DNA from: Dysidea avara
Taxonomy: Eukaryota; Porifera; Demospongiae; Dictyoceratida; Dysideidae
DNA: 64,000 bases
Direction: 5' to 3'
Assembly (NCBI RefSeq): GCF_963678975.1
Contig: NC_089285.1
Coordinates: forward strand, 3,384,531-3,448,530
Below the pieces are notes generated by a model. The model saw nothing but the letters and a program-made list of their open reading frames with translations, was not told the origin of the DNA and searched no databases. Every line of letters starts with the position of its first letter. Positions within the stretch are counted from its first letter, which is position 1. Made by a program: the position numbers and the translations under genes. This document shows positions 10,824-50,567 of this stretch, piece by piece.

Positions 10824-13800
10824 ATGACGATGAGAGTCTACAACAGCAATGATATCTCAGTTTTGCATGTCGTCATTTTTACAGCAACAATCCTACATAC
10901 AACAGGTGCAGCACTTGATGATAGCTGCAACATGCACACACAAGCGAGATTACAATTATTATTATTATTATTATTATTATTGTTATTATTATTTAGTGAC
11001 CAACACCGAAGATCTGACAGCAATTATTAGTGCTTCATCTAGTCTACCGTTGAGCTTCGTTTAAAGCTTTTTTCGAGTTCGGTAAACTACGTGGTCCAAA
11101 ACGTCACAGCCAATTTTTTTATTTAGCTACGTAGCTAATTTGTAGCTATAGCTAGCTGTATAGCTGGTAAGACCAATTAACATACACTCTGTTTTTCAGG
11201 AATGGCTGCAGCAAGAGTTGTAACAGAACCAAATGATGTCAAGTATATATTTATTAATGATAGTGCTGTTATTGGATGCTACACCATCACTGAAGACAAT
11301 TCCACCAAGCAGGAAGTGGAAAATTCAGTTTGGTTTCGATCATTACCTTGGCACCAATTTGATGACTCAAAATCAGAAAGAGTGAGAGTTTTTAGACATA
11401 CTTTAGTATTCTCACTAGTGTTAAGTAGTGATGAAGGAGAGTATTACTGTTGCACATCTGTAGGAGGACCATGCAGTAAACCTTTAAATGTCAATATATT
11501 TGGTAAGCTATTAAGTGCTTGTAATTACTCTACAATATTACTTTTATTTATGTATCTTGTTTTACTTTTGCATGTGAGCAATACATATTTTGTACATCAT
11601 CATGTATATAAGAACAGAAGCAATAAATGAAGTAAGTTGTGCCAATTGAAAATAAAAATAACCTATCAAGTTGGGTATAATAAGCTCATGGTGGCATGCA
11701 AAGCCATGTTCCAGGTGTTGTTGACAAAGTGTGTGTATGTGGTATGACCTTGCTATGTATATGTCACATGCTCATACATGACCTTACTGAGTTAGCTAGT
11801 AATGATGGAATGTGTATAGCTTACTGATGGCATAAACAATAATAGTGAGTCATTTGTGCATAGCTGGATAATTATCATTATGAAGTTCATTAGAACTATA
11901 TAGAACTGATGACTGTGTGGGATGTAAATAACATTGTACATATATATTAGAATATGCAAATTTTGAGAAGATTTATTTATTTTGACTAGGTATCTTGTGG
12001 ATGTGCCGTTTAAATCTATGCACTTTAAAATCTGTGTCAAAGCATCAAAGACCATGGAACTAATAAATACCCACAGTCGTGAGGACTACTTATATAATAT
12101 TATTCTGTTGGTCTGTGCAAACATGTATGTATGCAGTTCGGTAAAGCCTATATACTTCTATTTTACTGACATACAGGGTATATTTCTGTTGTATATATGG
12201 TGACTACTGTAGCAAACATTTGGTTTACATTTAGTTTAAATTCTATTGATACTTTGCAGTTCATCCTATCATTGAAGTTGTCAGTGAAGACTATACTGCG
12301 TTTATTGGTTCAGAAGTGAATTTGATCTGCGCAATAATCAACAAGGGAATACCTCCAGCCAAGTTTCGTTGGATGAGAGTAGACAAATACATTCCTGAAG
12401 ACTTCATCACTACAAATGATACACATACTGTTTTAATGCTGTCTAATTTAACTCAATATAACAGTGGAGCTTATGCGTGCATTGCTGATTCTCCTCTTTC
12501 ACCAGTGGGAAAACTATTATACCTTCATTTACAAGGTTTACACAATATAATTATAGCCATGATAAACACATACTTGAAACTGGTTGGATAACCAATAGTT
12601 TAGCCTTAGGCTAATTTGGTTAAAGAATTTAGTTATTACCATTGTTATTCAGTAATTGCATTTCCTCACAAACTTGTGTAAATACAGTTATGCCTCTGTA
12701 TATTGTGTAGTTCCCACCCACAAACCAACATTCCCTCTAAAAGGTTATTACTGCAATTTAAATATTTATATACAGTTCCTCCAAAAATAATACTGAATGG
12801 ACCAACGATAGCACATAGTGGAACATTGGTAAACATCACTTGTATCCCATTGGAGGGACGGCCTCTTCCTGATACTTATATCTCCAACCCACTGGGAGAT
12901 GTTTATGAAAATCAGAACATTTCTTTTATAGCAACTATTCGGTATACTGGATATTACACGTGCTCTGCAAACATCTCAACAATGACTGTCACTGAGAATC
13001 ATTACCTGCTTGTCTATGGTGAGATATTGTAGCTATGTGTGTATGTGACCAAGTATTTAGTGTACAAAAGTAGTTGGAAAATGGGTGTAGTATTGCAGGT
13101 ACTGGAATGGAGCTTAACATAGTTTAAAATGATAGACATGTACTGTAGGGATTGTACCATTGTGTTTGTACACAATAGAAACCTTAAATGCACAGCAGGG
13201 TTTGTTATTGTGACTCGCCACAAGTGCATAAAGGAATTTATGTGGTTATTATGCACATCTGTTGATAGCTCTGGCACTTAGTATGAATTAGCCTAAAGCA
13301 GCATTACAAGTTTAGAACAGATTATGCCTTGTAAGGCAATAGTCATTATGCATTACACATTCTAGTATCTTAAGTTTTGATGCTGTTTACTTACAGACAC
13401 TGATAATACAACTAGTCACCTTCGATTCCTGGCTATTATCCACAATAATGATTGTCACTTTAATGTAAGTATTATCGTAAGATTTTCCGGTTATCACATA
13501 TGTCACCCAGTCAGACAAAAACGGTCTTACCGCCTATTTAAAAGTATTGAGAAATGCCAGTTTTAAGTATTCAGTGTGTTATAGCTCACCAATGGTAAAA
13601 GCTAACTGAGTGTACCAAGTTTTCACATGATTTACAACAACTTCTTACCTTCAAAAGCATCCACAGTAGAAGTAGCCAGGCCTCAAGTTTCCCACCATAT
13701 TTTAGGGATTGTTTAAAATAATTAAAGAGGAAGTGTAGGGATGAATTGGGCCAAGTTATGAGCCATTACGGTCTCAAAACTGACTAAAATGAAAGCACAT

Positions 13801-48400: not shown

Positions 48401-50567
48401 AAATGTGCATCACTACATATCCTGTAGGCAGTCCTAAGCATGCCTCAACAGGCTAAACCTTGCACAACAGCTAGTTATGGGATACACTATTATATTATTG
48501 GTTATGTTTATTTACAGACATTAACAATGTAACTAGCCACCTTCAGTTCTTGGCTATTATTCATAATAGCGATTGTCACTTTAAGGTAAATATCTTGATT
48601 AAGTTAAATTAATTGTGATGTGCCAGTTTATCACATAAGCTATTTAAGATTATTTAATCTGTCAATAATTATTATTGCTAGCTGTTATATTTTGATATTA
48701 TTTTGGTTGGGAAGCCAGGTAACACACACACTCTACACACACACACTCTACACACATACAACGCACACACAAAAGTAAAGCCTTCAGCTCCCGCTACATG
48801 GTCACGCTGCCTAGTAGCCAGCACTGGGGCACCTGTACAGTTGCTATGAGTCAGCACAGGCATGCCCTCCTGGGACACGGCTGGTAACCCACAAGGGGCT
48901 GTACCATGTCTCAGGTGAAAGTGTGGGCGCCCGAAGTCACACCTGGACCTTTAACTGCCATATGAGACACAAAGAGTTGAGCATTTGCTTCCCTAGTTTA
49001 CACCAAGTACCCACTGATGTTACAGCTGGGTGGGCTGCTTCCCCAGTTGGCACCAGGCCACCAGGTCCCTATTTTAACAGCTAGATAGACTGGAGCAATG
49101 TGAGTAAACACACACACACACACACACACACACACACACACACACACACACACACACACACACACACACACACACACACACACACACACACACACACACA
49201 CACACACACACACACACACACACACACACACACACACACACACACACATACACACACACACACACACACATACACTACACACCACACACACACAACACAC
49301 ATATAGTAGCCATACCAAATTTCACCTAAATAATTATTGGTCACAATCTTACAATGCTCACTACAAACATTACCTGTGATATCCTGTCATATGTAATTGC
49401 TGCAGTGCATGCATGAATTGTGCAACCAACTGTATAGTTGAGTGCCTCTATTTTTTCTTTACTTAGCATGTGAATATCACTACAAAAAATATATAATGTA
49501 ATTAAATAATTTACTCTGTTCTTCATATATTTCTTTAGTATGGAAGAGTTCTTTCTGCGATTTTAAAAAACAACGTATATGAAATTTGTAAATGTAATGT
49601 CAACATATCAACTGAGAGATTTGAATGTATTAGTGACAGAAGAGCACTTTATTATGTTACTGTGACTGGATTTATGGCAGGAAATATCAAGGAAATTTTA
49701 ACAAATGAAGAATTGGCTATTGAAATTGGTTCTGAAACTGCAACACTACACATATGTGATACACCATGTGAAGAGGTCACTGACATAACTGATCAAGACG
49801 ATCATCATAACAACAATCACCATGGTGATAATAGAATAGCAATTTGGATGGCTTTGTCAGCAGTAGTAATCCTGCTGGTAGTCATCATCAGTTTTGTAAT
49901 ATACAAGTATGTATTGTTGCTTTGTAAATGTAGTATTCAGACATCTGTTTATAATCACCCTATCCAAAATTCTAAATCTACAGGGACTATTACAGATACA
50001 CAGCATTTCAACCTTTTCATCATTATTGGCTGTTATAAATTTATATATGTCTACTTGCTATGTGTAATTTTATGACATATCATCATTCTGAAGTACATAT
50101 CAATGATTCTATATTATCTTTATAACCACACTCCCATAACATTGCTGTACTTTTAAATTTGCAATTGACTTATTATTATGTACCTGTATTACACAAATAG
50201 GCTTCTAAATGGAGTGAATGAGTGTGTACCACGGAAGGAAACTTCAGCTGATCATACACCTAATCCACTTGCTAGAGACCCTGTAACTACATTTCAACAG
50301 TTGCATTTAACAAAGGAGACTATACCTGAAGAAAACATACGAGTACCAGCTAGCAAGGATGTAGTGGTAGCAAGCAGCAATAGTGAGACACTGTCAAGTA
50401 TCCAGCCTAATGACACAATCACTACTGTACCAAAACAATCCACATTGCAAAGAAACAGATGTTATACACAAGTTGATCGAAATAATGGATTGGAGATTCT
50501 AAAATATGAAGCTATGGTACAAAGAGTTACAAGAGACTTTGCATCATCAACAGGAACTGATGTGTAG
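45471..50567 (+). CDS. Gene B: three-Ig, SEA-like, single-pass membrane receptor (7 exons, 564 aa)
   Basis: Exons 45471-45525, 45795-46109, 47474-47752, 47929-48171, 48518-48585, 49539-49906, 50201-50567; all GT-AG, in frame, with the same phases as gene A. Residues 1-18 are the signal peptide. Ig1 (19-123) has L-E-C-C, IWIRS and D-Q-G-Q-Y-Y-C-C. Ig2 (124-216) has SCK, YWK and Y-L-C. Ig3 (217-297) has both cysteines and no core Trp. The SEA-like membrane-proximal domain (298-405) has the same CNVNISTERF block as A. A His/Asp/Asn-rich spacer precedes the transmembrane helix (~419-441). The 121-residue tail keeps the A motif E-T-(S/A)-x-D-x-x-P-N-P but lacks the A tyrosine after it; Tyr545 (LKYEAM) fits the PI3K-type YxxM pattern. 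There is no kinase domain. Likely a cell-surface recognition receptor paired with gene C. Confidence 0.87.
48715..49106 (-). mobile_element. SINE copy 1, minus strand, in intron 5 of gene B
   Basis: Read on the minus strand it matches 57115-57460: ACATTGCTCCAGTC, GGGACCTGGTGGC, GCAGCCCACCCAGCTGTAAC, then AGGCTTTAC and a GTGT-rich tail. The tRNA-like head is lost, replaced by the (CA)n array next to it. Confidence 0.65.
49107..49303. repeat. (CA)n microsatellite, about 195 bp
   Basis: Nearly pure CA repeat with a few interruptions at its right end, next to the truncated SINE, in intron 5 of gene B. Confidence 0.95.

Follow-up and report, generated by a model that had tools for sequence, protein, structure and literature searches.

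Two paralogous immunoglobulin-type receptor genes of the sponge Dysidea avara belong to a clustered family with two classes of cytoplasmic tail

Results and Discussion

Two seven-exon receptor genes

We analyzed a stretch of 64,000 nucleotides from the sponge Dysidea avara (the window; C14:3384531-3448530 of the 550.8-Mb assembly, which has 15 chromosome-size contigs; C14, C1 and C10 are contigs). It carries two paralogous genes, A and B, which are real and intact-looking and belong to a clustered family of cell-surface immunoglobulin (Ig)-type receptors with at least two dozen members. The window sequence sufficed to reconstruct all 14 exons, seven in each gene; internal boundaries were GT-AG throughout, and cumulative intron phases were 1,1,1,1,0,2 in A as in B. 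Each model contained a single stop, yielding proteins of 622 (A) and 564 (B) amino acids that were 48% identical over 491 alignment columns. This is the architecture that a first-pass annotation of the window had described, and its view of A and B as locally duplicated, single-pass receptors with three Ig domains, one per exon, was likewise borne out by the gene models and by a tblastn search of the genome. The exons, in window positions, are as follows.

A exon 1, 10824..10905, + strand: signal peptide, phase 1 end (ATG and GT donor by sequence; the ...LHxTG end is common to B and to a further C14 member, g10)
A exon 2, 11200..11502, + strand: Ig1, with Y-Y-C-C and a third Cys downstream (sequence, paralogue alignment)
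A exon 3, 12260..12535, + strand: Ig2 (Pfam Ig_3, E 1.1e-12, residues 131-204)
A exon 4, 12776..13018, + strand: Ig3 without the core Trp (sequence, paralogue alignment)
A exon 5, 13397..13464, + strand: first part of the membrane-proximal domain (a 96-nt DNA match to B, 80% identical)
A exon 6, 15151..15497, + strand: remainder of the membrane-proximal domain and transmembrane (TM) helix (sequence, paralogue alignment)
A exon 7, 17212..17761, + strand: cytoplasmic tail with two YxN motifs and C-terminus ESSV, of putative class-I PDZ-ligand type (sequence)
B exon 1, 45471..45525, + strand: signal peptide (sequence)
B exon 2, 45795..46109, + strand: Ig1 with Y-Y-C-C (AlphaFold2 (AF2) model with Ig-like strand order, predicted local distance difference test (pLDDT) 73)
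B exon 3, 47474..47752, + strand: Ig2 (Pfam Ig_3, E 3.6e-19, best stretch 126-200)
B exon 4, 47929..48171, + strand: Ig3 without the core Trp (sequence, paralogue alignment)
B exon 5, 48518..48585, + strand: start of the membrane-proximal domain (sequence)
B exon 6, 49539..49906, + strand: remainder of the membrane-proximal domain and TM helix (sequence, AF2)
B exon 7, 50201..50567, + strand: cytoplasmic tail with YEAM (YxxM) and C-terminus GTDV, of putative class-I PDZ-ligand type (sequence)

The TM helix was recognized in both proteins by inspection. Exons of A and B could be aligned with each other and introns essentially could not, the exceptions being one 14-nt match and the bases flanking exon 5. 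For exons 3-7 the A-B ratio of nonsynonymous to synonymous divergence (dN/dS) was 0.14-0.56, with dS of 0.86-1.88; synonymous sites of exon 2 were saturated. A word that the annotation had found in both 3' untranslated regions does exist, but it amounts to one common 12-mer and was given little weight.

Extent of the family in the genome

Searches of the genome by tblastn gave 72 matches with B as query, 77 with the model of a C1 member, h1, and 86 with Ig1 plus Ig2 of another, h3. With these queries pooled, related Ig1 exons were located in at least 13 places on C14, at least 11 on C1 and at least 3 on C10; the counts are lower bounds because the search scores best candidates only. The two genes that the annotation had taken as a duplicated family are indeed duplicated, but the pair is incomplete, being 2 of the 13 C14 Ig1 loci and 2 of at least 27 in the genome. 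The C14 sites lie at 2.60, 2.66, 2.71, 2.75, 2.89, 2.93, 2.97, 3.21, 3.28, 3.34, 3.40 (A), 3.43 (B) and 3.95 Mb, 11 of the 13 on the plus strand. Those on C1 span 33.51-34.50 Mb, all on the minus strand and two with a stop at the edge of the match, and further C1 matches, partial or with a stop, occurred near 33.65, 33.95 and 34.15 Mb. In addition, the h1 model detected a short Ig1-like fragment on C9. With the h3 query, matches elsewhere than on C14, C1 and C10 had E values of 9.6e-7 or worse and fell mostly in the generic Ig2 part.

Twenty genome stretches, representing 19 loci, were read and gave models g01-g08, g10 and g11 on C14, h1-h5 on C1 and k1 and k2 on C10, many of them partial; five of the 11 C1 loci and two of the 3 C10 loci were thus read directly. 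The frame was open from Ig1 to the stop in A, B, g02, g03, g08, g10 and g11. Because the last five do so with the same junction phases, the models of A and B are more than chance; the splice script sought sites of the expected phase only, and what it shows is the presence of good sites there and of open joined frames. Exon 5 was not found in g01, g04-g06 and h1-h5, in which blind joins past Ig3 would be out of frame and exons were used singly. Ig3 alone was seen at a locus at 3259 kb and Ig1 alone in the stretch examined at 3945 kb, and tails of g07 and h4 were not found.

Some individual loci had features of their own. The Ig1 exon of g04 (stretch L035, positions 1791-2039) carries an in-frame stop even though the locus is nearly that of g05 (8.2 kb at 96.6% identity), which indicates either a pseudogene or a sequence error. 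Intron 2 of g11 (L043, 2221-2271) has 51 nt, a multiple of three, and is free of stops, so that its retention would give one open frame through Ig1 and Ig2. In the C10 relatives (L050 and L051), Ig1 and Ig2 occupy one stop-free open frame, with Y-C-C present.

Ig domains and the membrane-proximal domain

When both protein models were searched against Pfam, Ig_3, Ig_2, ig and I-set scored above cut-off in A and in B, with Ig2 scoring best. Ig1 was recognized less readily: 9 of 19 rows matched Ig_3 at E<=0.01, and B itself did not. A profile of Ig1 run against PDB retrieved Ig domains of adhesion molecules and receptors, including otk, Dscam, Robo and JAM, and also titin. The AF2 model of B Ig1, built on an alignment of two sequences, was compared with PDB by Foldseek, and most of the 50 matches listed were Ig chains (best E 0.013 among the matches listed).

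Two marks that the annotation had pointed out in A and B, adjacent cysteines (Y-Y-C-C) in Ig1 and the lack of Trp in Ig3, were present in both genes and also in their paralogues. The C-C motif was read in 13 of 13 C14 loci and in all 5 C1 and both C10 loci sequenced, and in 16 of 16 aligned rows C-C was accompanied by a third Cys at a distance of 5-11 residues. In k1, C-C was kept and the third Cys was not seen in the aligned part; B has a further C-C at the first core Cys. Probably the core pair of Ig1 forms one disulphide, and the third Cys pairs with the second of C-C to tie the FG hairpin, which resembles complementarity-determining region 3. All 13 modelled Ig3 rows were without Trp. In h2, h3 and h5, however, the candidate third Ig does contain Trp, and this mark is therefore not valid across all of C1.

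The domain encoded by exons 5 and 6 was seen in 13 rows and, more weakly, in h2-h5. It had been labelled SEA-like, a label for which we obtained no sequence support. No Pfam match to the SEA family was found in A or B at E<=1, nor at E<=5, under the HMMER filters, in the five domains for which exons 5 and 6 had been spliced, and the single match of an exon 6 profile against PDB was unrelated (E 0.79). An AF2 model of exon 6 of B alone, with A as second sequence, showed helix-strand-strand-(unmodelled)-strand at low confidence (pLDDT 50, predicted template-modelling score 0.33). The SEA label was dropped on the Pfam and PDB profile results.

Cytoplasmic tails

Seven tails were located in the A/B branch, that of g07 not among them, and all seven end in [ST]-x-[VL]: ESSV in A, GTDV in B and g10, ETCV in g02, ETSV in g03 and ETTL in g08 and g11. 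We take these to be what are called class-I PDZ-ligand C-termini. Such ends were rare by chance, at 0.03-0.05 per gene in shuffled tails, and [ST]-x-[VLI] occurred at 55 of 1167 tail positions. The tails fall into four lineages (A; B/g10; g02/g03; g08/g11) with 60-80% identity within and only 16-29% between them, suggesting that the PDZ-type end was kept while the remainder drifted. By its other parts, g07 belongs with g08 and g11. If the four lineages were independent, the chance of this pattern would be about 1.5e-6, a figure that serves only as a guide in view of their common descent. Tyrosine sites are also present in this branch: B and g10 keep Y-E-[AN]-M, and A has two Y-x-N.

The other class of tail has P-S-[KT]-x-H-[PV]-x-Y-[VY]-[DE]-[IV] near the C-terminus in 7 of 7 cases (g04, g05 and g06 on C14; h1, h2, h3 and h5 on C1). 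The tail of g01 has neither a PDZ-type end nor this tyrosine motif. An immunoreceptor tyrosine-based inhibition motif (ITIM; [SIVL]xYxx[IVL]) was absent from A and B, and a reading of the two as ITIM receptors was rejected on this count of 0. Among the 15 tails examined, a strict ITIM occurred in two (h1 and h5), with shuffles giving 0-0.39 per tail. Searches of A and B against Pfam revealed no TIR (at E<=1), DEATH or CARD, no kinase or sushi domain, and no Calx-beta domain at E<=1.

Tail class and ectodomain phylogeny

Trees were built from 12 rows, excluding h2-h5, k1 and k2, and also g04 for its in-frame stop. The PDZ-tailed rows and g07 clustered apart from g01, g05, g06 and h1 in the concatenated tree (support 91/96), in the Ig3 tree (79/90) and in the tree of the membrane-proximal domain (81/88), none of these being firm. 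The Ig1 and Ig2 trees were discordant, yet the PDZ grouping was not rejected in either (approximately unbiased test, p-AU 0.19 and 0.11). It is thus likely, although not firm, that tail class tracks ectodomain phylogeny.

The discordance of single-exon trees concerned the position of A, which fell outside B and g10 in the Ig2 tree, and that of g07, g08 and g11 in the Ig1 tree. These shifts were not significant, as no grouping was rejected in the tests (p-AU 0.35, 0.19, 0.11), and domain swapping between subfamilies is not shown by them.

Divergence among paralogues

A recognition role, raised in the first-pass annotation, had been expected to leave its trace in a highly variable Ig1 and in ectodomains more divergent than the DNA around them. 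Neither was seen between paralogues: there was no amino-acid excess in Ig1, and A/B exons were far better conserved than introns. Ig1 dN/dS was 0 to 0.48 in 10 of 11 paralogue pairs, the eleventh being A/B, in which Ig1 was 45% identical and saturated; g04 and g05 had zero amino-acid changes in this domain. Positive selection on Ig1 was set aside for these 11 pairs. The highest ratios lay outside Ig1, in Ig2 of g04/g06 (1.06; 11 nonsynonymous and 3 synonymous changes), g05/g06 (0.87) and B/g10 (0.80), in Ig3 of g04/g05 (0.94) and in exon 6 of g08/g11 (0.73), none of them tested as above 1.

We also compared synonymous changes among exons in seven pairs (uncorrected p-values, rounded counts). 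Heterogeneity was strongest in g02/g03 (p 1e-9, chi-square over all exons), followed by g08/g11 (0.0019), g07/g11 (0.0047) and A/B (0.0088); g04/g05 (0.087), g05/g06 (0.15) and B/g10 (0.19) gave p>0.05. In g02/g03, exons 4-6 had changes at 16 of 160 synonymous sites and exons 2, 3 and 7 at 102 of 251 (p 3e-12, a contrast picked after the values had been seen). High identity of this pair extended through intron 5 and, within intron 6, over the first 47 nt, but not to intron 4. These observations indicate gene conversion or exchange of the block from Ig3 to TM, with intron 4 apparently replaced later in one copy; g08/g11 and g07/g11 would be weaker mosaic cases. The easy swapping of exons that had been proposed from their symmetry thus has a counterpart in an apparent exchange of an exon block within the family, but neither a recent event between A and B nor a swap between subfamilies emerged.

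A partner gene beside B

Gene C lies head-to-head with B, with 219 bp between the two ATGs. Two exons were delineated.

C exon 1, 44960..45251, - strand: signal peptide and C-x-W-Y-Y-R...D-I-G-E-Y-F-C (Ig-like by eye; end by eye; no Pfam match)
C exon 2, 42488..42778, - strand: second exon (boundaries approximate, by eye)

By eye, C may have further exons with TTVVPPS-type linkers near 41.08-41.01 and 37.98-37.93 kb; no TM or tail of this gene was found. Genome matches to the first two exons at E<=0.01 were weak (E 7.6e-5 to 0.0027, 31-35% identity), and relatives were located only beside g10, again head-to-head with 227 bp between ATGs, and beside the 3.945-Mb Ig1 copy. The first exon of the g10-side relative, C', again opens with a signal-like stretch. 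The 3.945-Mb copy is an inverted copy of the start region of g10, 96.7% identical over 2665 bp and about 667 kb away (L014, L015); downstream receptor exons were not found there in stretch L044. As this locus is a recent copy of the g10 region, both partner matches count as one. No relative of C was matched at gene A. Of the 13 C14 Ig1 loci, 3 thus showed receptor and partner side by side, two of these 3 being recent copies of one another, and the partner gene was likely duplicated together with the receptor.

Other features of the window

Transposase-like open frames occupy 2533-4790 (+ strand), with Pfam matches to the TNP-like RNase H domains, N-terminal (E 6.9e-24) and C-terminal (E 3.4e-10), and a reverse-transcriptase fragment lies at 6766-7011 (+ strand; RVT_1, E 3e-07). 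Beside B there is an imperfect tandem duplication (51855-55653 / 56586-59810; offset 3.7-4.8 kb) with pieces 86-98% identical. Long simple repeats, which appear as long false open frames, were found at 49104-49282, 52304-52893, 52966-53100, 53815-53930 and 57440-57700; the repeat is of TTA type near 52.3-52.9 kb and of GT/CA type at the others.

Possible function of the receptors

The reading we favor, at a probability slightly above one half (about 0.53), is that A and B are PDZ-anchored adhesion or recognition receptors at cell contacts, within a clustered single-pass Ig superfamily (IgSF) group. The distal Ig1 would bind a partner on the opposing cell, be it itself, a paralogue or another ligand; the PDZ ligand would anchor the receptor to a contact-zone scaffold; and SH2 proteins may be recruited by its tyrosine sites, which are YxxM for B and g10 and YxN for A. 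The mode of action would resemble that of junctional adhesion receptors of the nectin/JAM/CAR type, in a multigene and partly gene-converted version. Such a multigene set could serve as a cell-recognition code, with the tyrosine-tailed members of C1 and part of C14 as its signalling counterpart. Surface location, the extra disulphide, PDZ and SH2 binding and recognition in trans are all predicted from sequence.

Several observations weigh against this interpretation. The PDZ and SH2 sites are short, putative motifs, and the four PDZ-tailed lineages share ancestry and are hence not fully independent. The junction between TM and tail in g08 is uncertain. The Ig1 tree places g07, g08 and g11 with tyrosine-tailed rows (84/88), and the Ig2 tree recovers neither tail class. 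Generic IgSF matches fail to separate adhesion from microbe sensing, the conserved membrane-proximal domain has no Pfam or PDB sequence match, and the AF2 models are shallow, each using two sequences, with pLDDT of 50 in the exon 6 model and 73 in that of Ig1.

Alternatively, A and B could be allorecognition determinants, with the clusters as the sponge counterpart of the Hydractinia allorecognition complex and a polymorphic Ig1 that governs fusion or rejection by self-recognition in trans. The clustering and expansion of the IgSF family, its copy fragments and its mosaic paralogues would fit this, as would the tyrosine-motif tails of related members. However, sponge allorecognition is usually linked to aggregation factors. 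In addition, Ig1 lacks an amino-acid excess between paralogues and A and B have no ITIM. We consider this alternative unlikely, even though the head-to-head, seemingly co-duplicated partner gene recalls Botryllus fester/FcoR as outlined in PMC12065747.

A similar degree of doubt applies to a role in innate immunity, in which duplication would have diversified receptors for ligands of microbes or symbionts. D. avara is reported to have a large IgSF repertoire, with 637 I-set sequences and a V-set count given as 594 in the text and 564 in the table, in a paper whose focus is NOD-like receptors (PMC12909245). Another paper describes an Ig-superfamily transcript and an Ig+CARD transcript of this species that increase after microbial patterns (PMC6208332); neither has a known link to the A/B family. 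Against such a role, TIR, DEATH and CARD were not found in A or B, and conserved PDZ ligands would suit contact-site scaffolds better.

A bolder and slightly less probable proposal is that the C14 and C1 clusters form one sponge recognition complex, in which PDZ-tailed members might act as contact-site ligands or labels and tyrosine-tailed members as signalling receptors, with diversity from gene conversion and a divergent partner gene at some loci. If true, it would be an IgSF allorecognition system beyond Cnidaria and Chordata. That these genes have an ordinary housekeeping role in the adhesion of sponge cell layers, as redundant copies with no recognition code, seems very improbable: dN/dS mostly well under 1 and the PDZ ligands would agree with it, but copy number, strong divergence of paralogues (as in A-B Ig1), the existence of two tail classes, the copy fragments and the mosaic pairs do not.

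Comparison with known systems

Nectin, JAM and CAR have an Ig ectodomain, one TM helix and a tail with a C-terminal PDZ ligand, and A and B share this layout in having an Ig ectodomain, a single predicted TM helix and a tail end of PDZ-ligand type. They differ in the extra membrane-proximal domain, Trp-less Ig3, C-C in Ig1 and the large gene cluster, and the Ig1 profile showed no homology to these receptors in PDB beyond generic Ig. Sponge aggregation factors are characterized by Calx-beta domains, whereas A and B have no Calx-beta match and do have a TM helix; unlike sponge Ig-TIR receptors, they also carry no intracellular TIR at the threshold given above.

The allorecognition complex of Hydractinia contains at least 41 loci of the Alr family (Huene et al. 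2022, as cited in PMC11067881, PMC11999971 and PMC12065747). Judging from these secondary accounts, both families consist of clustered single-pass IgSF proteins with related gene fragments and tyrosine motifs in some tails. Polymorphism and function have been demonstrated for Alr1 and Alr2, whereas the sponge family is known here from the sequence of one assembly; A/B tails have PDZ-type ends and no ITIM, and the likeness is one of description, not of sequence comparison. As in the Botryllus fester/FcoR system sketched in PMC12065747, a receptor adjoins a partner gene in a unit that appears to have been duplicated (B/C, g10/C' and the 3.945-Mb copy). This analogy concerns gene arrangement only, as A and B have no sushi match and the pairing is limited to 3 of 13 C14 Ig1 loci. 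Among sponge proteins, the Ig-domain receptor tyrosine kinase of Geodia cydonium and other Ig adhesion molecules, as summarized in PMC12018476 and PMC11999971, are likewise Ig-type surface proteins; compared by description, A and B differ from that kinase in having no kinase match. A literature search, with subscription journals mostly outside its reach, gave no title or abstract opening on this receptor family. With its two tail classes, the clustered IgSF family offers a concrete gene set from an early-branching animal in which to study allorecognition and codes of cell adhesion.

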